Assembly: GCF_021228235.1 (NCBI RefSeq)
Contig: NZ_JAJQRG010000003.1
Span: 372,001-436,000 of the forward strand
DNA: 64,000 nucleotides
Reading direction: 5' to 3'
DNA from: Pseudophaeobacter flagellatus
GTDB lineage: Bacteria; Pseudomonadota; Alphaproteobacteria; Rhodobacterales; Rhodobacteraceae
A model generated the notes under the pieces. That model saw only the letters and a program-made list of their open reading frames with translations. It ran no database searches and was not told the DNA's origin. A program made the translations under genes and the position numbers. Of the stretch, positions 1,975 through 34,360 are shown one piece after another. Each line of letters starts with the position of its first letter. The stretch's first letter is position 1.

Positions 1975-2607
1975 TTAGTTGGTTTTTCTAGCGAGTTCGG
2001 CGGGCCAGTGGAGCCGAACCTTTGCCGCCCACTTGAGCCGGACGTTCCATATATTGTTCGCGCCGGGGTTCAGGGAAATCAGGTGAAATAGCCCCGGTTC
2101 GTCACCGGGCTTGATCTGCTTGACCCAGCCCATGCCGTCCTCATCTTCGCAGACGCAGCGGTGACCAATGTCATCCGACGGCACGGCGTCATGGCCGTTG
2201 CGGGTGTAAAACAGCAGATCCCCGGCAGAATAGACAGGTTCCATGCTGTCGCCCTCGACCTCTACCGCGACAATGCCATGAGGGGATAGTCCGGGCGGGC
2301 ATTCGACCTGGGGGCCGTCGCCTTTTTCATAGACGTCAAACAGGGGAACCTGGGCACCAGCACCGACTTTACCAGCGATTGCGATGGTTGGGGCTACTTG
2401 GAAGTCGCCTGCCATGAAACTTTCAAGTGAAACGCCTGTAGCGGCGGCAAGCCGTAGAGCATCTTCTGCATTGGTGCTTTGCGTCTTTCCCTGATTGATC
2501 TTCTTCAGCTGCTCGTAAGAAACACCAGCCTTTTCGGCTAGTTTTCGCATCGAAAGTCCTGATGCGGCCATTGCTCCGTTGAGCGCTTCTCTGAATGTCA
2601 AAGGCAT
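1975..2607 (-). CDS. Phage repressor, LexA/CI type (HTH + S24 peptidase)
   Basis: A 210-residue repressor of the CI/LexA class that should keep the phage lysogenic. Residues ~4-65 are an HTH_3 domain (the recognition region includes SYEQLKKINQGKTQ). Residues ~75-205 are a peptidase S24 domain with a likely AG cleavage site near 78-79 (IAGKVGAG), Ser121 in GDSMEP and Lys163 in WVKQIK as the catalytic dyad, so RecA-stimulated self-cleavage is expected. I chose ATG at 2607; the frame continues 29 codons upstream, but that stretch is the operator region. The first operator overlaps this start codon, suggesting autoregulation. Confidence 0.9.
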   Translation of the reverse strand: MPLTFREALNGAMAASGLSMRKLAEKAGVSYEQLKKINQGKTQSTNAEDALRLAAATGVSLESFMAGDFQVAPTIAIAGKVGAGAQVPLFDVYEKGDGPQVECPPGLSPHGIVAVEVEGDSMEPVYSAGDLLFYTRNGHDAVPSDDIGHRCVCEDEDGMGWVKQIKPGDEPGLFHLISLNPGANNIWNVRLKWAAKVRLHWPAELARKTN

Positions 2608-2684
2608 AGGGTGACAATATTCCCTATTGGCTGTCAAGAATAGGAGACGATTGTCCCTTGCTATTTGGGGATAATAATCCCTAT
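2606..2684. promoter_or_regulatory. OR-like operator cluster between repressor and Cro-like gene
   Basis: Three palindromes in 79 bp: ATAGGG-N10-CCCTAT (2606-2627), AGGAGACGATTGTCCCT (2642-2658) and GGGGATAATAATCCC (2667-2681). All share the GGGGAnnATnnTCCC-like pattern, although the first has one extra central base. The first overlaps the repressor start codon and the third ends 9 bp before the Cro-like start. The layout is that of a lambda-type three-site right operator. Confidence 0.75.
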
Positions 2685-2692
2685 ATGGCGTC

Positions 2693-2908
2693 ATGATTAC
2701 TGCACACCTGATTTCGGAGATCGAGACTTTTGCCTCTTTGAGGGGGATCGCTCCGGCGACGGTTACCAGCCGAGGTGTTGGGAATAGTCGACTTTATCAC
2801 CGCCTGAAAAATGGCAAAAGCTGTACGTTGGATGTGGCCGAGCGGCTGCGCGCCTATATGGCCGAAAACCCACCGCTCGCTGCCGCACAGTCGGAGGGTG
2901 CAGCATGA
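2693..2908 (+). CDS. Cro-like HTH protein (71 aa)
   Basis: A 71-residue protein divergent from the repressor. It has a short helix-turn-helix-like segment around residues 20-40 (PATVTSRGVGNSRLYHRLKN) and resembles the small antirepressor/Cro proteins of alphaproteobacterial phages. The start codon is 9 bp from the third operator, so it would be the first rightward lytic gene. The stop overlaps the next start (ATGA at 2905), indicating translational coupling. The family is assigned mainly from position, size and the HTH-like pattern. Confidence 0.7.
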   Translation: MITAHLISEIETFASLRGIAPATVTSRGVGNSRLYHRLKNGKSCTLDVAERLRAYMAENPPLAAAQSEGAA

Positions 2909-7891: not shown

Positions 7892-8506
7892 ATGGGCATC
7901 GAGCAGGGGTTGCCCCTTGATGAAGAGCAGGGCGCGCTGGGCGGGAAAGAGGCAGAGTTGCAAGCCGAGATCCGCGAACTGCGCGGACTTCTCGAGCGTG
8001 CGGGACGCGTTGGGCGGTCGCAGTCTGATCGCCCAGCGCCGAAGGCAATGGCCCAGCAGCTTGCCCTGCCGGATGTGGTGCGCTTCCCTCTGGCGGAGTT
8101 TGCAGAGGGAAGGGGGCAAAGGGTGCCGCTGCCGGAAAGCGTCGAAGAGATTGCCGAGGTGATCGGGCGCGGTGATGCAGTGCGGCTGGTGGAAGGCACG
8201 CGCGCCAGCGGAAAGCGCCGTTGGCGCCGCTCGCTATATGTCCCAACCGATATGACCGCAGAGCACCGTATCGCTTCTATGATCGGCTTAGAGGCCGCCA
8301 CGCGCCTCAGTTTCAGCCACGGCAATTGCATTGTCGAGCTGCCTTCCTGTTTCGCCCTGCGTAAAGCCTACGCCGCAGACCATGCTTCGCGCCTGAGCGA
8401 TGCTGGCGCCACCCAAGCGGAGATTGCAAACGAGATGGGGGTTGAGCAGAAGACGGTAAAGAGCTTGCTGGATGTTGCAAGTTATTGGCAGCAGAGACTT
8501 AGCTAA
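7892..8506 (+). CDS. Mor-like transcription activator
   Basis: A 204-residue protein. Residues ~85-200 follow the Mor/Mu middle-activator pattern: a helical segment (PESVEEIAEVIGRGDAVRLV), a strand (RRSLYVP), IASMIGLEAATRLSFSHGN, a second strand ending in Pro (IVELPS), then a C-terminal HTH (GATQAEIANEMGVEQKTVKS). The N-terminal ~60 residues are a coiled-coil-like extra region. Its place at the end of the early operon, upstream of late genes, fits a late-gene activator. Family assignment is by pattern and moderately sure. Confidence 0.65.
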   Translation: MGIEQGLPLDEEQGALGGKEAELQAEIRELRGLLERAGRVGRSQSDRPAPKAMAQQLALPDVVRFPLAEFAEGRGQRVPLPESVEEIAEVIGRGDAVRLVEGTRASGKRRWRRSLYVPTDMTAEHRIASMIGLEAATRLSFSHGNCIVELPSCFALRKAYAADHASRLSDAGATQAEIANEMGVEQKTVKSLLDVASYWQQRLS

Positions 8507-8683
8507 CAAATCCGCCTGCAACAATACTACCTATGAGCTGCACAGGGGGCGCCAGATTGACGGTGGTGCGGTCAAGACTGGGCGGAGTGAGGGCGGACTT
8601 GCGCTACGGTGAAAAAGGAGCATAAATCTCCCCACTAGTGGAAGAATGGCTTATCGGTTTTGATCCGGAATAGGAGCAAGTGT

Positions 8684-8878
8684 ATGCCTAAAACGAGGCC
8701 ACCCCGAGAACGCGCAGCTCGCTCCCTATGTGAGCTGGAGGGGAACCCACCGAATGCCACGATGGACGGTGCACCCATGTGGGTGTCGTACCTTCCGGAG
8801 GTGGATGCGGTGTTGCGGGCCGCTCTGGGAGATGAGGCTTGGGCGGCCATGAAGGCTGAAGAGGTAAGTCCAGAATAG
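8684..8878 (+). CDS. Small hypothetical phage protein (64 aa)
   Basis: A 64-residue protein with a clear ribosome binding site (TAGGAGCAAGTGT before ATG 8684). The sequence begins with a basic stretch (KTRPPRERAAR) and ends with an amphipathic helix (LPEVDAVLRAALGDEAWAAM). No recognised family. A frame upstream to 8660 exists, but the binding site decides for the shorter start. Confidence 0.6.
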   Translation: MPKTRPPRERAARSLCELEGNPPNATMDGAPMWVSYLPEVDAVLRAALGDEAWAAMKAEEVSPE

Positions 8879-9042
8879 GAGGGAGGTTCTTACATCGCGC
8901 AGCATTTCTGAAGGCCGAAGAACCGCTATGCCGGACTTTGCTGCCGCTTACTCGAACATTGACTAAGTTACAGGCTGATGGTTATTCAAGCAAATTTTTC
9001 CCAGAGTGGGAAGCTCCGGCAAAACCAAAGGGGGAGCGCAAA

Positions 9043-9528
9043 ATGGACTTGAGTGTTGAGGTAAGGCTGGGACAGGGTGGCCACAAGGACTTGTTCCTAA
9101 AAATCCCTTTGCTCGGTGTCAGCGTTTGCGCCGACACCTACTACTTTGTTCTTGCTTTAGAAGAGCGACAGATCCGAGTTGATGAAGTTGCCATTCGGCA
9201 GGCTGTGGTATCACTACTGCAATATTGGATAGATAGGGCATCAAATTTGAAAGATCTGGAAACAATCCATCTCCCGTTCGATTTCAGTGATCAATACACT
9301 GGCTGTCTACAAGTGACTGCCGAAGGCTCCAGTTTCCACCTATCTTATGGTTTTAGCCTTATTGAAGGCTGGCGCGTTAACCCGCTTAGTCCTGGGCATT
9401 ACTCCCATCAGGTCGGTGATTTTCGACAACAGGAAAACTGTGAGCATAGGATTCCTAGGAGTGACTTTATCGGTACCCTTAATAGGAGCATCGCTGACCT
9501 CGAAAGTGAAACAGCACAGCCGCTATAG
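9043..9528 (+). CDS. Hypothetical protein (161 aa), possible moron
   Basis: A 161-residue protein rich in beta strands, with SDQYTGCLQVT and GWRVNPLSPGHYSHQVGDFR as the most distinctive segments. I chose ATG 9043 because GGGGGAG precedes it by six bases; a TTG at 8938 would add 35 residues without a binding site. No family recognised and no signal peptide. Its base composition is more AT-rich than the replication genes, and it starts the cargo zone between early and late genes. Confidence 0.6.
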   Translation: MDLSVEVRLGQGGHKDLFLKIPLLGVSVCADTYYFVLALEERQIRVDEVAIRQAVVSLLQYWIDRASNLKDLETIHLPFDFSDQYTGCLQVTAEGSSFHLSYGFSLIEGWRVNPLSPGHYSHQVGDFRQQENCEHRIPRSDFIGTLNRSIADLESETAQPL

Positions 9529-9738
9529 CTGTCCGGTGTCAATCGTAATCGGTGTAACTATGGGCTCACAGCTGACATGCGGCGATGCGGCGCGCCGGGG
9601 AAGATCGTCCAGCACCGCAACGACGGTTCCGGCCCTTTGCTGCCGTTGACCGACGGGGCGAGATGCTGCGGTCGCAGCCCGCATTGCCGCCGTTTGCTGC
9701 GGATGCGAACTTAAGCCCAACGCGAACTGGTCGCGTGC

Positions 9739-9768
9739 AGGATGAAGCGGACTACTCCGCTTCATCCT
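9739..9768. terminator. Perfect 13-bp stem hairpin
   Basis: AGGATGAAGCGGA / TCCGCTTCATCCT with a four-base CTAC loop, 31 bases past the stop-side end of the minus-strand DUF4399 gene (its stop is at 9800). There is no U-run on either strand, so it may be an RNA-stabilising or Rho-assisted end structure rather than a classic terminator. The surrounding 9529-9799 holds no supported gene. Confidence 0.5.
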
Positions 9769-9799
9769 CTGAGCTGTAGGCTGCTGTGGCGAAGCCGGT

Positions 9800-10228
9800 T
9801 TAGTTCACCGTGATTGTAATAACCTCGCTCATCACAGGCGGGTTGTGTGGAACGTGGCTCCAATCGCCAAGCAACAGTTGCAGCGTATGCGTGCCTGCAG
9901 GCAGATCTTTGGTCACCTGTGTCTGGCCACCCCCGAAATGGACGATCTTGTCCGTTGCGGGCAGTCCGGAATCCATGTCCAGCGTACTTGGGTCGGCGTC
10001 GATCAGAAGATGATGGTGGCCGGTGTTGTCCACGTCTGTTCCGGCCGGGGCGACGCCCATACCCTCCAATCCAAAAACGATAGTAACCGGATTTGACACC
10101 GTGGATCCATCCGTCGGCGAAACAATGTACGCGCTGGCACCTTCGGGCGCAGGGCTCCGGTGAGAGTCGGCGGACGCAGTCCCGGTAATCAGAAGTCCTG
10201 CCGTAGCAGCGATTATCAAATGCTTCAT
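9800..10228 (-). CDS. Secreted DUF4399 protein
   Basis: A 142-residue protein with a clear Sec signal peptide (MKHLIIAATAGLLITGTASA, cleavage after ~20), so probably periplasmic. The mature part matches DUF4399: VFGLEGMGVAPAGTD, then TGHHHLLIDAD, HFGGGQTQ and GTHTLQLLLGDWSHVPH. Function of the family is unknown; conserved His and Asp residues suggest metal binding. GGGAGG precedes ATG 10228 by four bases; the longer frame to 10297 is not needed. It sits inside the prophage cargo zone, on the opposite strand to phage late genes, so it looks like a moron acquired from a bacterial chromosome. Confidence 0.8.
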   Translation of the reverse strand: MKHLIIAATAGLLITGTASADSHRSPAPEGASAYIVSPTDGSTVSNPVTIVFGLEGMGVAPAGTDVDNTGHHHLLIDADPSTLDMDSGLPATDKIVHFGGGQTQVTKDLPAGTHTLQLLLGDWSHVPHNPPVMSEVITITVN

Positions 10229-10453
10229 TTTATCCTCCCAGAAAAATAGCCGATTGGCCCACTTGTAACAGTATAGCACGCCAGTCCTCTTGGCCACAAA
10301 ACGCTATGTAAGAGTCTAGTCGGCCCAGACCTGCCGTTCGACGCGTCACCCGTCGCTACGGCGCAGCACCCCGAAGCGGTCATCCATGGCATCGTGCAGA
10401 ATTGGTCGTCAGGCAAAGATCAGCGGCGAGTACCGAGCTGCTGAGACCGGACA

Positions 10454-10488
10454 GTGAAGGACCTTTCGAATGTGGTCCTTCACCTTTT
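10454..10488. terminator. Hairpin between helicase-nuclease and DUF4399 genes
   Basis: GTGAAGGACC / GGTCCTTCAC, a perfect 10-bp stem with a 10-base loop, followed on the plus strand by CTTTTG. It lies 23 bp beyond the stop codon of the minus-strand helicase-nuclease gene, so it could end that transcript, although the U-run is on the other strand. Confidence 0.55.
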
Positions 10489-10510
10489 GCCAACTACACT
10501 GACGAGATTT

Positions 10511-13060
10511 TCACATCAAAGACTTGAGTAGTCTGCGCGAGAACGCAGTCGACAAACCGCCAATCTGATACTCCGGAAGCATGCCGAGCTCCTTCAGCAT
10601 GTGCCAACGTTCAAGCTGCGTCCTGCCAACCAAATCGTCGATACGTGCCACAAAGCCATTGCATACCTCGCAGAACTCATCTGGTGAGGCTAGGAACAGA
10701 TGATCGCCCGGAGAGGCGTTGCCGCTCACGACACCCAGAGGGCCTAACACGATCACTCCGCTGAAGCCGTATCCATCATAATGCTCTTGCAGCCATTCAA
10801 TATGATTAAGAGATTGCCCGACCGCATCTTTCTTGTATGTCGTATCACCTTCTTTTTTTTGGGTCTTCAGCTCGAACGCGATAAGCTCCTTGGTCTCCTC
10901 TGAGCTCCAGACGACGTCTGGCCCCTTCTTGAAAACATTGTCAGGTCTAGCCGTTTCAAAACCGAGGAGTTCACCAATGATGCGGCAAGCTTCTTCCCTC
11001 TCATTGGACGACTTTGAGTGGTTTCCAACGATTGAGATACTACGTCTAAGCGAGGCCGCGTACTTCGAGAACGGGTTCCCGGCCTTCATGTTCAAATCCG
11101 CCAACTTCCGTTGCACAGGGTTCTCGGTGTCCAGTTCTCCCTGCTCGGTATCGAATTTACTAATGAGAGGAACATTGAGCCTTGGCGTAAGCCTTGATCT
11201 GGCCCGTGAGTAATGCGTCGAGGCGGACCCCAAATCTCCATCCATTTCGTAAGTCATACCAAGCCAAAGATCATACCAACCTGCGAGCTTTGAGTCGACG
11301 GGTGCGATATTGTCGACAACTGACATGAGAGATTGTCGAGCCCTTTGACCATCCCCATGCCAAAGGTAGCTCATGAACTCACTTTCAGCCGACGCGCCAC
11401 TTGCCAACTTCTCCTCACGCTCCCGCACCAAATTTATCGAGTCTTCATCTACCTCCAAGCCATCGATAGTTTCGCCGTAAAATTTCAGCCATTCTTTGTC
11501 GCGAACCTTACTTTCGCCATTTCCAAGAATGTTATTCAACAATTCAACCAGTTGCTCGTTGTTGCTCTCACCTATCTGCTCTTGCAAACTTGCTCCCAAC
11601 AGGAACTGCTTTCGAATTAACGCCGGGAGTAGAGCAATATTTCTATCGTTCTTGCACCACGTATTCAGGTCATGGCCGTATATGATAAACGCACCGTAAT
11701 CGCTTCGTCCTCGGTTAATTCTACCCAGAAGCTGCGTCAAACGAGTTGACGTTTTGGTAGCGTTCTGGCTCAACATCTGCAGAGCTTCGACTTGATAGCG
11801 TTCTTGAGAATTGGAGCCACTTGGGCTTCCATCGATGATCATAACTCTACATGTGTTTTGCGGAAGGTCTATTCCGTCGACCCTAGACACCAAGCAGAAT
11901 GCCCCAGTGTCACTGACGCGGAAATCATTCAAAGCTTCTGAAAAGTCGTCCGCCGAGGGCGGCTTGCACACTTCCTTCCATACCCCTGCCTTTCTGTAGC
12001 TGGGTACAGAAACGAGAACTTTCGACTCCGCCTTTAGGCGGTTGGCTAAATCTATCTTCCCATCGGGATCCTTGAGCAAAGAGCCAAGTATGATAACCCT
12101 CTCCCCGTTGCCAGCATCATTGTTCGGCTCGATCCTGTTAACTTTGGGGGTTCCAAATGCTCTTATGAAGTCCGTTGGATAGTCCAACGTTGCGGACAGA
12201 TATATTCTCCTTGGGCAGCTCAGAACATGCTCAAAGTGAGCATTCGGAATGAATGGAGGACAAATTTCAACCTCACGGGAGGACACATACACTGCGCAAT
12301 AGGAAATGTGCTCGAAGAGTTGAAGCATAGGGAATAGGAGGTCCTTGTGCTTCCGATAATCGTAGGCTTTGAAGGCATCGATGATTGCACCGGAATTTCT
12401 TGCTGCTGTCATAGGGGGACATAACGTAGTCCCGCCGGATGCCTCGTCGACAACAAACTTTAGATGGTCCCCCTTCTTAATATTCTCGAACTCTGGTCGG
12501 ACGATTTCGACTAATCGGTTGTACAAGTCTTCATGATCGGCGACCGAAACGGACACAGTGAGACTATCTCGGATCAGTCTTTCCGATACGTGAGCATCGT
12601 CAAAAATTATCCCACCAAGCTGGAATTTCTTAAAGGGGGAGGTCGACAGAAAGAGCGCTTGGTAGGTCGTTATGCAGAATGACTTACCTGTTTCGAATTT
12701 ATCGTTGGAGTAACTGCCACCAGTCCTTGTAGTATAGCTTAGGCCAAGTTTCTCAGCTTCGCGCGCAGTCTGTTCGACGAGGTCAATCGTACTGCAAACA
12801 AAGAGAACATTCTCCACGCCTTCATTGACCAGACTCTGGGCTGCCATCAACCCCACAATGGACTTCCCCGCGCCCGTGTTGAGAATTATCAGATTGTCCT
12901 TTTCTTTGCGCGCTTCATTCCATGCCGCAAGGGCGTCCGCCTGCCCCTTCCAAAGATCATTGGGAGCACCGCCTGTATTTGGTGTTTTCTTAAATATATC
13001 GATGGGGTCGGTTGGTGCTGACTTCGAATTTGGCCGAGACAGTTTTGAAAAATCTACCAT
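10511..13060 (-). CDS. SF2 helicase with C-terminal PD-(D/E)XK nuclease; candidate phage-defence protein
   Basis: An 849-residue single-gene unit. SF2 motifs in order: I NTGAGKS (61-67), Ia around VLFVCSTIDLVEQT (85-98), II FDDAH (153-157, a DEAH variant), III LSATL (288-292), V around VSRVDGIDLP, VI QLLGRINRGR (443-452). A TPR-like helical stretch lies near 595-622. The C-terminal ~685-760 has a PD-(D/E)XK pattern: GPDVVW (713-718) and AFELKTQ (728-734, the ExK element). This resembles predicted helicase-nuclease defence proteins such as Hna (abortive infection), but I cannot confirm homology. It is on the strand opposite the late genes and visibly AT-rich, as expected for prophage cargo. 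It could instead be another DNA-repair or restriction-type helicase. Confidence 0.85.
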   Translation of the reverse strand: MVDFSKLSRPNSKSAPTDPIDIFKKTPNTGGAPNDLWKGQADALAAWNEARKEKDNLIILNTGAGKSIVGLMAAQSLVNEGVENVLFVCSTIDLVEQTAREAEKLGLSYTTRTGGSYSNDKFETGKSFCITTYQALFLSTSPFKKFQLGGIIFDDAHVSERLIRDSLTVSVSVADHEDLYNRLVEIVRPEFENIKKGDHLKFVVDEASGGTTLCPPMTAARNSGAIIDAFKAYDYRKHKDLLFPMLQLFEHISYCAVYVSSREVEICPPFIPNAHFEHVLSCPRRIYLSATLDYPTDFIRAFGTPKVNRIEPNNDAGNGERVIILGSLLKDPDGKIDLANRLKAESKVLVSVPSYRKAGVWKEVCKPPSADDFSEALNDFRVSDTGAFCLVSRVDGIDLPQNTCRVMIIDGSPSGSNSQERYQVEALQMLSQNATKTSTRLTQLLGRINRGRSDYGAFIIYGHDLNTWCKNDRNIALLPALIRKQFLLGASLQEQIGESNNEQLVELLNNILGNGESKVRDKEWLKFYGETIDGLEVDEDSINLVREREEKLASGASAESEFMSYLWHGDGQRARQSLMSVVDNIAPVDSKLAGWYDLWLGMTYEMDGDLGSASTHYSRARSRLTPRLNVPLISKFDTEQGELDTENPVQRKLADLNMKAGNPFSKYAASLRRSISIVGNHSKSSNEREEACRIIGELLGFETARPDNVFKKGPDVVWSSEETKELIAFELKTQKKEGDTTYKKDAVGQSLNHIEWLQEHYDGYGFSGVIVLGPLGVVSGNASPGDHLFLASPDEFCEVCNGFVARIDDLVGRTQLERWHMLKELGMLPEYQIGGLSTAFSRRLLKSLM

Positions 13061-13471
13061 GGTTTTAAGGTGCTTTCGACTGAGTAATCACACCCACACT
13101 ACACCCCAATGTGGAATCGAGTTCAATGTTTTCCCGGTTTTCGTTGTCGGCAGTCTGCTGAAGACGCCGCCTCTTGATCAGGCCTGAGCGAACCGCGCCA
13201 ATCAGTGCAAACAAGCCATCAGTGCCAAGGACCGCTACGTGACCTTAGCCGTCGTTCATCCAAGGCGCAGCGAAAGCCCGCTCTCCGCCCTTCCTGTAAG
13301 CACACCCCCTGGATCTGACCATGCAAGCATGGGGCTGCTTCGGGTCGGAAACGGTAATTCTGGGCTTCCTAAGAAAACTGCCAGAGGCGGAGCTACAAGA
13401 TAGCTGCGATTTTGACCTCAAACCAACGGGCGCGCACGACTGCCGCCAGTTAGCGGAGAGGTCAGAGTTGC
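13061..13471. other. 411-bp junction between cargo and lysis module
   Basis: No supported gene. It contains the promoter of the minus-strand helicase-nuclease gene and probably the start of the rightward late transcript. G+C rises again after about 13180, consistent with a cargo boundary near there. Confidence 0.5.
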
Positions 13472-13810
13472 ATGACGCAGCCTACAATCACCAAGAACAT
13501 TTCGCTGGGCACAATCCTTAGCCTGGTGACAATCCTCACCTCCTTAGCCTTCGCATGGGGGCAGTTCAACACGCGCATGTCTGTGACAGAGGCGACGATC
13601 AGCCGTCTAGAGGGGCAGGTCGTTGCGCTGGATGACTTTCAGCGCCTTGAGGATCAGCTCGACCGCATCAGCCCCCGACTGCGCCAAGTTGAGCAGCGGA
13701 TCAGCGCGCAGGACGCCACTCTAGACCGCATTCTTGAAACGCTGGTTGATATCCGCGCGCGCCTGGACCGCCGCTCGCCGCCGACCAGCTATTTTCCCGA
13801 AAAACAATAG
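13472..13810 (+). CDS. Phage membrane coiled-coil protein (lysis region)
   Basis: A 112-residue protein. Residues ~10-32 are one membrane segment (ISLGTILSLVTILTSLAFAW) and the rest is a long coiled coil (ATISRLEGQVVALDDFQRLE, then DRISPRLRQVEQRISAQDATLD). The N-in, helical C-out architecture resembles small phage lysis-region membrane proteins, such as antiholins or Rz-like proteins. A separate spanin is encoded two genes later, so an antiholin/holin-accessory role is as likely. A weak GGAGAGG lies upstream of ATG 13472. Confidence 0.7.
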   Translation: MTQPTITKNISLGTILSLVTILTSLAFAWGQFNTRMSVTEATISRLEGQVVALDDFQRLEDQLDRISPRLRQVEQRISAQDATLDRILETLVDIRARLDRRSPPTSYFPEKQ

Positions 13811-13819
13811 GAGCTTACA

Positions 13820-14548
13820 ATGAAGCTACTTCCCAACTGGAAATCAGTGCTAGCCGGGTCTTGGTCGGTGTGGTTGATCGCTTTGGCATGCGTGCTGTCT
13901 TCTGTTCCCGTTTTTGTCTCTCTGGTGTCGCCTGGGTTGCTGGGCGTGGATCCTGTCATGTTTGCAGCTGCGGCTGCCGTGGTGAATGCTTTGGCTATTC
14001 CGGCCCGCCTCGTCGCCCAGGCTGGGTTGTCAAATGCGCTTGGTGTGTTTCGGCGTGATGCCAGTGGTGCGATGCGCAAACGGGCGGCTCTGGGCCTGGG
14101 TGCGGGCGCTTTGGTGATTTCCTTGGCGACGCCCTTCATTGCAAAATGGGAAGGCGTCCGACTTGAGGCCTATCGCGATATTGTCGGTGTTCCGACGATC
14201 TGTTTTGGCGACACGCACGGCGTCAGGATGGGCGAAAAAGCCAGCATGTCGGATTGTGTCGCCCGCTTAAAGGCTGATGTGCATATGTTTTATGCTGAGA
14301 TTAGCCGCTGCATGACAAACCCCGACATTCCGGCTGGTGTTCAGGCATCCATGCTTGAGCTGGCCTTCAATGTGGGATCTGGCCCGGTGTGTCGGTCAAC
14401 CATGATGCGCCTCGCCAATGCTGGGCAATACAGCCGGGCCTGCAGTGAATTGCACCGGTGGGTGCGAGCGGGCGGCAAGCGTGTTCGGGGGCTGGAAAAC
14501 CGGCGTGCCGATAGCAAGCGCGCGCTGTGCATGGACGGCCTTAGCTGA
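13820..14548 (+). CDS. Holin-like membrane domain fused to GH24 SAR endolysin
   Basis: A 242-residue lysis protein. Residues 15-70 carry two hydrophobic segments (WSVWLIALACVLSSVPVFVS; MFAAAAAVVNALAIPA) typical of small alphaproteobacterial phage holin-like proteins. A third weakly hydrophobic Gly/Ala-rich segment at ~89-106 directly precedes the lysozyme domain, as in SAR endolysins. The GH24 domain has the catalytic triad E111, D120, T126 (KWEG, YRDIVG, VPTICFG) with the same 9 and 6 spacing as phage P21/P1 lysozymes. It should cleave peptidoglycan glycan strands after membrane release. GGAG lies before ATG 13820. Confidence 0.85.
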   Translation: MKLLPNWKSVLAGSWSVWLIALACVLSSVPVFVSLVSPGLLGVDPVMFAAAAAVVNALAIPARLVAQAGLSNALGVFRRDASGAMRKRAALGLGAGALVISLATPFIAKWEGVRLEAYRDIVGVPTICFGDTHGVRMGEKASMSDCVARLKADVHMFYAEISRCMTNPDIPAGVQASMLELAFNVGSGPVCRSTMMRLANAGQYSRACSELHRWVRAGGKRVRGLENRRADSKRALCMDGLS

Positions 14549-15104: not shown

Positions 15105-15659
15105 GTGACTGTAAAGAAAAAGAAATCACGCGGCAGAGAAGTAAACCGCACCGAACTGGCCGAAATCAACGGCGTGTCACTTCCTACTATTGAAAGCTGG
15201 GTGCGACGCGATTGTCCCGTTGTGCAGCGGGGCGGGCGCGGGCGGGCTTGGACATTCAACACCGCCGATGTTCGAAACTGGCGCGAGGACGATATCAGAG
15301 CGGAGTCCAGCCATACCACGCACGCCACCAAAGACGAGTTGCTGTTGCGCAAGTTGGCCGCCGAAACCGAACAGGCTGAACTGGATCTTGCAAAATCCAA
15401 AGATGAGGTCGTGCCGGTTGAGCAGCTTGAACGGGCCATGGTCAAAGCCTTTGGTGAGGTGCGCGCGGGCCTGCGCAATGTGGTGCCCAGCCGGGCGGCC
15501 AGCCGTTTGCTGGGTGAAACCGATGAGACAACACTCAAGGCAGTTTTGCTGGAAGAAATTGATCACGCGCTCGAGGCCCTGGCCGATAGTGATCTGATCA
15601 ACGAATCCGATTTGGATCTTGAAGACAATGAGGAAAGCGAGGGGGCGGAAAGTGCGTGA
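15105..15659 (+). CDS. Terminase small subunit (Nu1-like)
   Basis: A lambda Nu1-type DNA-packaging protein that binds near cos and recruits the large subunit. The N-terminal winged HTH is seen as EVNRTELAEINGVSLPTIES and WVRRDCPVVQRGGRGRAWTF (about residues 10-50 from this start). A helical region (LLLRKLAAETEQAELDLAKS) and an acidic C-terminus follow, as in Nu1. GTG at 15105 with AGGGG upstream is preferred. A TTG at 15066 in frame would add 13 residues but has no ribosome binding site. The stop overlaps the terminase large start (GTGA). Confidence 0.8.
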   Translation: MTVKKKKSRGREVNRTELAEINGVSLPTIESWVRRDCPVVQRGGRGRAWTFNTADVRNWREDDIRAESSHTTHATKDELLLRKLAAETEQAELDLAKSKDEVVPVEQLERAMVKAFGEVRAGLRNVVPSRAASRLLGETDETTLKAVLLEEIDHALEALADSDLINESDLDLEDNEESEGAESA

Positions 15660-17605
15660 ACGCCCGGGCTGACTTTTCCAATGCCAGCGCGGTAGTTCGG
15701 TCATCTAGGCGGGCCCGCAATTATCTGCGACCGCCCCCAAACCTGCTGCCGTCTGAGTGGGCAGAGGCCAATGTAAAAATCCCGGTCGGCAATGCCGTGC
15801 CGGGTCCAATGCGGTTTGATAACGCGCCCTATCAGCGCGAAGTTATCGACATGACTGCCAACCCACGCTGCGAGCGAATTTCGCTGATGTGGGGCGCGCA
15901 GGTTGGCAAGACGCAAACCGCTCTGGCGGCGCAGGCATACCGGATCGGGTTCAACCCCGTTTCCCAAATGATGATGCAGCCCAGCCAGGGGGATCTGACC
16001 ACCTGGCTAGAGACCAAATTCAATCCGATGGTTGAGGCGAACGAGGGCCTGCAAGAGGTGCTGGCCAAGCCGCGCGGTCGGGATGGGGTCAACAACCAGC
16101 GTATGAAGAGTTACCCGGGCGGGTTCCTCATGTTCAGCTGGTCTGGTTCGCCCAAAACCATGCGGGGGCGGTCGGCGCCCTTTATCGTTTGTGATGAAAC
16201 AGACGGCTATGACCGCACCAGCGAGGGTCACCCGGTTGGCCTGCTATGGCAGCGCGCCGCCACCTTTGGCGATCAGCGGCTCTTGCTCGAGATCAGCACC
16301 CCCACAATCAAGGGCGAAAGCCATATCGAGACCGCTTTCGAGCAGGGAGATCAGCGGTATTTTCACGTTGTCTGCCCGCATTGCGGCCATTTGCAAAAGC
16401 TCAAATGGGGGCAGGTAGATTGGGACAAAGACGAGAACGGGGAGCACCTGCCGGAAACCGCAACCTATCTCTGTGAGGCAGACGGTTGCGGAACGGCCTG
16501 GAATGATGGCGAGCGTTGTGCGGCAATCCGAAATGCTGAAAAGCAGGGTGGCGGCTGGATCGCCAAGAAGCCCTTTAGGGGCCATGCCTCTTACCACCTG
16601 TCAGAGCTTTACAGTTGTTTCCGCCGCCTGAAAGATATTGTGCAGAGCTTTCTGGATAAGAAGGCGGCAGGCGATCTACAGACCTTTGTAAACGTCTCGC
16701 TGGCAGAGACTTGGGAAGAGGCGGGCGACAAGCTCGAGGCGGCTGATTTGATGGCCCGGGCCGAGAAGTTCAACGCACCGGCGCCGCGCGGTGTGGGTGT
16801 GATTACTGCAGGCGTCGACATGCAGGTCGACCGGCTCGAGGTGGAAGTTGTTGGCTGGGGCTTGGGGGAAGAGTCCTGGTCTCTTGGCTACCATGTTTTG
16901 TGGGGTGATCCGCTACGGTCTGAGGTCTGGGATGAGCTGGACGAATTACTAGATGATAGCTGGACCCATGAGAACGGCAGTGAATTGCGGATATCTGCCA
17001 TTGCTCTGGATACCGGGGGCACCGTCGGCGGCTATACCCAGGCGGCCTATGATTATGCCCGCACCCGGTTGGGGCGCAAAGTCTTTGCCATCAAGGGCGT
17101 TGGTGGCTGGGGGCGGCAAATTGTGGGCGCACCCAGCAAGATCCGCCAGCGCGGCAAACGTCCTGTGCAACTGTTCTCTGTCGGCGTTGACGAGGCCAAG
17201 GTTGTCGTCGCGCAAAGGGCGCGGATTGCGGGGCCGGGGCCTGGCTACAACCACTTCCCAAAGGATCGTGACCCGAACTGGTTCGATATGTTCACTGCTG
17301 AGAGCCTGCGGACCAAATACCTAAAGGGCTTTCCTATTCGGGAATGGCACCGCCTGCGCCCGCGCAATGAGGCCTTTGACTGCCGGGTCTATGCCCTAGC
17401 GGCGTTGAAGATCCTAAACCCCAATATTGCCCGCCTGGTGAAGGCCTTGGAAGTAGAGGACGAAGAGGTCGAGGCCCCAGTCGAAACTGTGCCACCAGAC
17501 GTGTTGGAGGAAAAAGAGCCAGAGGTCACGCTGCCCCAAAAGCCGCAGGCTACGGGAAAGCGCGTTTGGAAGCCGAAGAGCAAGAGGCGACGACGCGGCA
17601 TCTGA
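15656..17605 (+). CDS. Terminase large subunit (lambda GpA type)
   Basis: A 649-residue packaging motor and nuclease. The ATPase domain has Walker A GAQVGKT (80-86) and Walker B IVCDE (177-181). A zinc-finger-like pair (CPHCGH and CEADGCG) follows at ~240-275. The C-terminal nuclease half begins near GVDMQVDRLEVEVVGWG (~384), with Asp residues of the RNase H-like fold. The last ~60 residues are acidic then basic (ends KSKRRRRGI). Length and order match lambda GpA, implying cos-type packaging. GTG start overlaps the small subunit stop. Confidence 0.95.
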   Translation: MNARADFSNASAVVRSSRRARNYLRPPPNLLPSEWAEANVKIPVGNAVPGPMRFDNAPYQREVIDMTANPRCERISLMWGAQVGKTQTALAAQAYRIGFNPVSQMMMQPSQGDLTTWLETKFNPMVEANEGLQEVLAKPRGRDGVNNQRMKSYPGGFLMFSWSGSPKTMRGRSAPFIVCDETDGYDRTSEGHPVGLLWQRAATFGDQRLLLEISTPTIKGESHIETAFEQGDQRYFHVVCPHCGHLQKLKWGQVDWDKDENGEHLPETATYLCEADGCGTAWNDGERCAAIRNAEKQGGGWIAKKPFRGHASYHLSELYSCFRRLKDIVQSFLDKKAAGDLQTFVNVSLAETWEEAGDKLEAADLMARAEKFNAPAPRGVGVITAGVDMQVDRLEVEVVGWGLGEESWSLGYHVLWGDPLRSEVWDELDELLDDSWTHENGSELRISAIALDTGGTVGGYTQAAYDYARTRLGRKVFAIKGVGGWGRQIVGAPSKIRQRGKRPVQLFSVGVDEAKVVVAQRARIAGPGPGYNHFPKDRDPNWFDMFTAESLRTKYLKGFPIREWHRLRPRNEAFDCRVYALAALKILNPNIARLVKALEVEDEEVEAPVETVPPDVLEEKEPEVTLPQKPQATGKRVWKPKSKRRRRGI

Positions 17606-34283: not shown

Positions 34284-34360
<77 letters not shown>

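Follow-up and report, generated by a model that had tools for sequence, protein, structure and literature searches.

A prophage-borne Hna-family helicase-nuclease from a clade sister to the characterised Hna, a candidate single-gene defence system

Introduction

Does a helicase-nuclease gene that lies among phage genes serve the phage, the DNA repair of the host, or defence against other phages? This question is raised by an 849-residue protein encoded in a 64,000-nucleotide stretch of DNA from Pseudophaeobacter flagellatus, which is called the window in this study. The initial annotation, made from the letters of the window, proposed a prophage-borne single-gene defence system and left it undecided whether the protein is Hna or belongs to a different lineage.

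According to part of the published account, Hna of S. meliloti is a 3'-5' single-stranded DNA (ssDNA) exonuclease that forms an ATP-stabilised autoinhibited dimer and is released by the ssDNA-binding protein (SSB) of phage 5A (PMC13381803). The same part describes roles of R36 and Q39 at the ATP site and mutations of the nuclease residues P712, D713, E727, and K729. The characterised Hna acts on phages by abortive infection, in which infected cells cease virus production and die (PMC13381803 and PMC12445080, each in part).

Results

The gene and its surroundings

The gene is a single intact open reading frame (ORF) with an ATG start on the minus strand (Table 1), and the description of its product as an 849-residue protein with SF2 helicase motifs in the N-terminal part and a C-terminal PD-(D/E)XK nuclease was borne out. 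All the motif spellings given at the outset were exact, including LSATL at residues 288-292. The FDDAH motif had been singled out as a special variant, which did not hold: D154 and D155 are invariant in 17/17 aligned members in one alignment and in 29/29 in another, and DDAH is thus a trait of the family.

The gene has a G+C content of 49.5%, and the rest of the prophage has 58.0%. None of 56,350 sliding frames of 2,550 bases in the window (overlap with the gene excluded) was as low, the minimum being 53.5%. The earlier hand counts of 26/60 (11461-11520) and 28/60 (12121-12180), against 40/60 in the terminase gene (16021-16080), were also exact.

Hairpins had been described on both flanks of the gene, and only the downstream one was recovered. 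A stem lies just 3' of the stop codon (Table 1), and comparable stems occur 3' of orthologues at L002 (z -3.3) and, weakly, at L004 (z -1.1, 24/200 shuffles as stable). Four 75-base pieces before the gene folded no better than shuffled sequence. The terminator scan of 8400-14000 detected three sites, all in 8530-9012 and none adjoining the gene; the downstream stem was missed because the scan admits loops of 3-8 only. Promoter-like sites near the gene were found at the level of shuffled sequence.

Table 1. Features of the window and of the corresponding slots in related prophages.
Feature	Location	Strand	Basis or remark
CI-like repressor of prophage	1975..2694	-	PHROG match
Late transcriptional activator, left slot border	7892..8506	+	phrog_836, 6.7e-14
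Variable cargo slot	8507..13471	.	comparison of related prophages
DNA unit common to islands L004 (87%) and L002 (83%)	10321..13291	-	DNA comparison
Hairpin just 3' of hna-family stop codon	10453..10484	-	11-bp stem, z -2.9
hna-family gene (PADLOC PDC-S28)	10511..13060	-	849 aa; profile, PDB sequence, and fold matches
Nuclease ExK half FELKTQ, residues 729-734	10859..10876	-	E730/K732 = Hna E727/K729
Nuclease PD half GPDVVW, residues 713-718	10907..10924	-	P714/D715 = Hna P712/D713
SF2 motif VI QLLGRINRGR, residues 443-452	11705..11734	-	alignment
Walker B FDDAH, residues 153-157	12590..12604	-	D154 and D155 invariant in both alignments (17 and 29 members)
Walker A NTGAGKS, residues 61-67	12860..12880	-	alignment
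Helicase Q-motif region N34-D-L-W-K-G-Q40	12941..12961	-	W37 at position of Hna ATP-site R36; Q40 = Hna Q39
Small ORF directly before endolysin	13472-13810		position only
Endolysin, right slot border	13820..14548	+	phrog_7, 5.3e-47
Terminase large subunit	15656..17605	+	used as bait for related prophages
Right attachment repeat	34284..34336	.	53 bases identical to left copy; inside tRNA-Arg 34284-34360 (-)
L069 slot: beta protein and capP-like			PADLOC <= 1e-30
L078 slot: SduA of Shedu, with PDC-S42-like protein	L078:4780-7659		PADLOC <= 1e-30 (SduA)
L079 slot: DNA methyltransferase			PADLOC <= 1e-30
L080 slot: DUF4238-Pers			PADLOC <= 1e-30
L084 slot: dGTPase	L084:6460-7749		PADLOC <= 1e-30
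L090 slot: PDC-M31A			PADLOC <= 1e-30
L091 slot: Drt6/Drt4 reverse transcriptase, then ORF without match	L091:2328-4886		PADLOC <= 1e-30 (reverse transcriptase)
L148 slot: PDC-S20	L148:4704-6149		PADLOC <= 1e-30
L068 slot: AbiZ-like			weaker PADLOC match
L089 slot: PDC-M43B, M58A, S02			weaker PADLOC matches

Membership of the Hna family

The PADLOC model PDLC04987 of PDC-S28 matched the protein end to end (1053.9 bits, residues 1-847). PDC-S28, a candidate single-gene system, is one of the systems for which PMC11811056 credits Payne et al. 2021. The sister model PDLC04986 gave 452 bits against 1054 for PDLC04987, whereas the reference Hna (L016) gave 1020 bits with PDLC04986 and 400 with PDLC04987; both models were matched by 17/17 aligned members. 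In a PDB sequence search, 10uj, 9yhn, and 9ykj formed the sole strong set of entries (5.9e-47, spanning residues 51-771), and the runner-up was at 0.014. In the part of PMC13381803 consulted, 10UJ and 9YKJ are the monomer and dimer of S. meliloti Hna, and 9yhn is labelled 'Hna Monomer' in the Foldseek output.

The structure of the protein was modelled with AlphaFold2 from 29 sequences (pLDDT 83, pTM 0.68). The three top PDB matches found by Foldseek were all Hna (1.4e-44, 5.8e-33, and 1.3e-19), followed by DinG/XPD from 9.5e-15. The best Hna match covered 849 alignment columns, and the TM scores to Hna were 0.65-0.67. The overall rmsd to the Hna monomer was high (15.9), which indicates that the placement of domains in the model differs from that in the solved Hna. 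A C-terminal nuclease fold was predicted, with its elements in the order reported for Hna; its absence had been named beforehand as an argument against the proposal. P714, D715, E730, and K732, which align with the mutated Hna nuclease residues, are kept in 9/9 rows of the clade defined below. The profile, the PDB sequence search, and the fold all place the protein in the Hna family, which supports the proposal of a candidate single-gene defence helicase-nuclease.

A host DNA-repair helicase of the DinG/RadD/XPB type, acquired by chance, would explain why XPB, Hef, and RadD models match weakly and why DinG/XPD folds come next in the Foldseek ranking. The scores are, however, far under the curated cut-offs: the 13 NCBIfam models listed, for repair helicases and others, gave 9.8-23.4 bits against cut-offs of 219.8-785, and the identity as a repair helicase was rejected. 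A match was found in just 6/292 genomes of the order, the own genome included, which does not fit a housekeeping helicase at a conserved chromosomal locus, the other finding named beforehand as counting against defence. The closest relatives are in mobile contexts, and a repair helicase is hardly credible.

A sister clade with changes at the ATP site and the dimer loop

The protein shares 25% identity with Hna of S. meliloti 1021. In a tree of 49 sequences with midpoint rooting, it falls in a clade of nine rows (clade II, support 100/100), and the reference Hna falls in a sister clade of 37 rows (clade I); three rows lie outside both. The question of Hna or a different lineage is thus answered by a clade of the Hna family that is sister to the characterised protein. 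Clade II includes the near-orthologues L002 and L003, two proteins from viral contigs at 50-52% identity, plasmid proteins of Swingsia and Janthinobacterium (41%), and the pair formed by proteins of S. meliloti MABNR56 and Agrobacterium (36%). The tree program issued a warning about meeting long branches, which include those of this last pair and the sister clade, and the branching order near the split of clades I and II is therefore less sure than the support suggests. We found no characterised member in this branch.

At the position of Hna R36, W is present in 9/9 rows of clade II and in two of the three outer rows, whereas clade I has R in 32/37 rows, Y in 4, and F in 1. The position of Q39 is Q in all 49 rows. 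The residues T30, D31, and P34 of the Hna dimer loop are replaced by G30, G31, and D35 in the 849-residue protein. Since neither these ATP-dimer residues nor the ATP-coordinating R36 is kept, control of the protein may differ from the published mechanism. The loop is variable within clade I too (T kept in 2/37, D in 9/37, and P in 14/37), so that its changes are weak evidence of a different mechanism and do not define the family.

It is quite possible, if a little short of an even chance, that clade II has the same fold and ancestry and is gated or triggered differently, with another ATP gating, no dimer formed through the same loop, and perhaps a trigger other than SSB or direct recognition of ssDNA or of DNA ends; this would be compatible with the best explanation given in the Discussion. 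The W shared by all of clade II, the change of all three loop residues, and the deep split with full support argue for it. On the other hand, Q40 is retained, as are the motifs of the helicase and the nuclease, the variation within clade I suggests that the loop may tolerate change, and W could occupy the same place as R36.

The prophage and its variable cargo slot

The gene had been regarded as prophage cargo on the opposite strand, which agrees with the prophage found: identical 53-base repeats of a tRNA-Arg 3' end bound 38.6 kb, the left copy lying outside the window. Beside the left repeat, also outside the window, is a 359-residue integrase, whose PF00589 score of 28.2 bits is barely above the cut-off of 27.1. 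A scan of 20 ORFs identified genes for a CI-like repressor, a replication initiator, a Holliday-junction resolvase, the late activator, an endolysin, and the terminase, as well as for portal, head, baseplate, sheath, and tape-measure proteins. The sheath and baseplate genes indicate that the prophage group has a contractile tail. An SSB of the prophage would be a possible partner of Hna; the one PF00436 match in the own genome lies on a different contig, and SSBs of the T7 gp2.5 type may escape this model.

The terminase was matched in 102/295 genomes of the family, with 64-79% identity in four besides the own genome, and at not fewer than 80 loci of viral contigs. With the late activator or the resolvase as left border and the endolysin as right border, both borders of the slot could be placed in 21/85 loci examined, the window included. 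The slots measured at most 71 bases in three of the 21 (L070, L071, and L121), about 0.7 kb in two, and 1.4-6.8 kb in sixteen; the slot is thus empty in 3/20 relatives with both borders. DNA homology to the window attains the left border in 13/18 loci and in all 13 stops at 8370-8489, and it resumes at 13356-13895 in 18/18 loci. Proteins of at least 150 residues do not recur between 17 slots (sixteen plus that of L090) at E <= 1e-6, apart from a doubtful 156-residue frame of L079 and L080. An Hna match was found in 0/20 other slots with both borders placed, and the window alone has one.

When 27 larger proteins from 15 related slots were scanned with PADLOC, matches at E <= 1e-30 were obtained in 8 slots and weaker ones in 2 (Table 1). 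The proteins of the other 5 (L081:5474-6991, L147:6139-6918, L149:6813-7607, L075:7059-7649, and L083:6552-6962) had no PADLOC match at 0.001, and the 505-residue protein of L081 likewise had no Pfam match. These results support the view that defence-type genes are frequent in this slot, which separates the late activator from the lysis genes. Because several of the models are broad or candidate ones and the comparison was limited to the slots themselves, the term defence slot is a supported reading and not a measured enrichment. The 12 of the 27 proteins that matched no PADLOC model are leads for unknown systems.

The slot in the window contains other cargo. A DUF4399 protein (PF14347, 3.1e-33) at 9800-10297 (-) was unexpected and had no PADLOC match, and a 196-residue ORF at 8938-9528 (+), adjoining the late activator, had no PHROG, Pfam, or PADLOC match. 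A literature search on prophage hotspots in Roseobacter/Rhodobacteraceae returned no title or abstract opening on this slot, and no publication uniting Hna, prophage, anti-phage, and Shedu was found; neither result is proof of absence.

Since the gene is within a prophage, a helicase-nuclease for phage replication, recombination, or packaging has to be considered instead of defence. PHROGs annotates distant relatives as 'DNA helicase' (phrog_16, 3.1e-14), and the best match, phrog_16128 (9e-43), has no annotated function. A replication role is nevertheless very improbable, as the gene is on the opposite strand with an odd G+C content, is absent from all 20 of the other slots whose two borders could be located, some of which are empty, and has relatives on plasmids and in islands.

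Distribution and mobility

A DNA unit consisting of the gene with about 230 bases before and about 190 after it is common to the prophage and two islands (Table 1); at L003, similarity to the window is confined to the gene itself (72% DNA). The islands are otherwise dissimilar to the prophage, and a unit of about 3 kb with a single gene common to all three indicates a single-gene system that moved horizontally. The orthologues, at 84-91% identity, occupy different recombinase-bearing islands, and Pfam confirmed the recombinases near them. One (89%) is on a contig of 5.8 kb assigned to an Alteromonadaceae MAG, an assignment that may be wrong, and is followed by a resolvase; another (84%), in Albibacillus kandeliae, adjoins a large serine recombinase and a SocA-like antitoxin gene; the third (91% over 641 residues), in Rhodobacter maris, has an apparent frameshift and an adjacent integrase and Bro-N protein. 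In genome G040, two separate hna fragments (L006:1504-2129 and L010:1519-1794) lie near an IS66 transposase and an rve-type transposase, which is decay of the gene.

Within the 260 bases upstream of the gene, only stretches of 27-51 bases recur, in 15/149 genomes of the family including the own. These stretches (13244-13297) lie where the shared unit ends upstream of the gene (13289-13296) and are perhaps a recombination anchor; no stop-to-stop frame of more than 216 codons over them was present in six re-found copies. The 213 bases downstream occur once in the own genome.

A match was found in 1/50,697 phage records and, at 1e-5, in 234/72,556 plasmid records. The scan of viral contigs gave no relative with the single protein as query and 36 loci with the family alignment as query. 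The Lactococcus plasmid pMRC01, which presumably confers an abortive-infection phenotype, carries an Hna-family gene (L020:2345-4879). In Rhizobium sp. NLR16a (L017:1-4864), genes for an AAA ATPase and a UvrD helicase precede the Hna homologue, an arrangement that we take to recall Gabija.

The frequency of the family on plasmids would also fit a stabiliser of mobile DNA, directed at plasmids or competitors rather than mainly at phages, and an ssDNA exonuclease could also attack incoming ssDNA. We consider this unlikely, given that the characterised Hna acts on phages in the published work seen in part (PMC13381803, PMC12445080) and that many slot neighbours match anti-phage models.

Discussion

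The best explanation of the locus, to which we assign a probability of about 85%, is that the prophage carries an Hna-family gene from a sister clade and that its product would act as a single-gene abortive-infection nuclease and shield the host from other phages, a function that is proposed here. The gene would be expressed from its own unit during dormancy of the prophage. The SF2 (XPD/DinG-like) helicase part would bind ATP and ssDNA and restrain the C-terminal PD-(D/E)XK nuclease until a product of another, replicating phage, most likely its SSB, frees it. The freed nuclease would degrade ssDNA from 3' ends, and the infected cell would stop phage production and then die or go dormant. The prophage would benefit in that competitors are kept from taking over the host population. 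The nuclease effector and the abortive outcome can be carried over from Hna with fair confidence because the catalytic residues are kept, whereas the ATP/dimer switch and the SSB trigger are carried over with less confidence because the residues behind the switch differ.

A bolder proposal, tentative and on balance somewhat doubtful, is that clade II forms a branch of the Hna family with a function of its own, in which helicase and nuclease persist, the ATP gate and the dimer switch are rebuilt (Trp at the Arg36 site, no T-D-P loop), and another infection cue is used, and that the exchangeable defence slot trades systems among prophages of this bacterial family. In the published work consulted, seen in part (PMC13381803, PMC12445080), the control mechanism of Hna has so far been based on one protein. 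The intact protein described here comes from a deep sister clade and differs at specified positions of ATP gating and dimerisation, so that it can be used to test how general the Hna model is.

The protein resembles Hna of S. meliloti 1021 (pSymA; 10UJ, 9YHN, 9YKJ) in its whole-length architecture, its predicted fold, the DDAH helicase motifs, the P-D-E-K nuclease residues, and its organisation as a single gene. It differs in its low identity, its clade, its PADLOC sub-model, the Trp in place of Arg36, and the other dimer-loop residues; it is also located on a prophage, whereas Hna of S. meliloti 1021 is on a megaplasmid. Compared with PADLOC PDC-S28, the match extends from end to end and no difference was seen, and PDLC04987 fits the protein better than it fits the reference Hna. 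Part of PMC13381803 compares Hna with the DinG, ExoDinG, and XPD helicases. These share the helicase fold with the 849-residue protein, but the similarity is far weaker (9.5e-15 against 1.4e-44 for Hna), and the protein has the PD-(D/E)XK nuclease at its C-terminus. At the level of the locus, the closest parallel drawn here is with prophage hotspots. P2-like phages and P4 satellites possess defence hotspots, in which a fixed slot holds exchangeable defence cargo. The present slot is of the same kind, but it belongs to another phage group and is bordered by the late activator on one side and lysis genes on the other.
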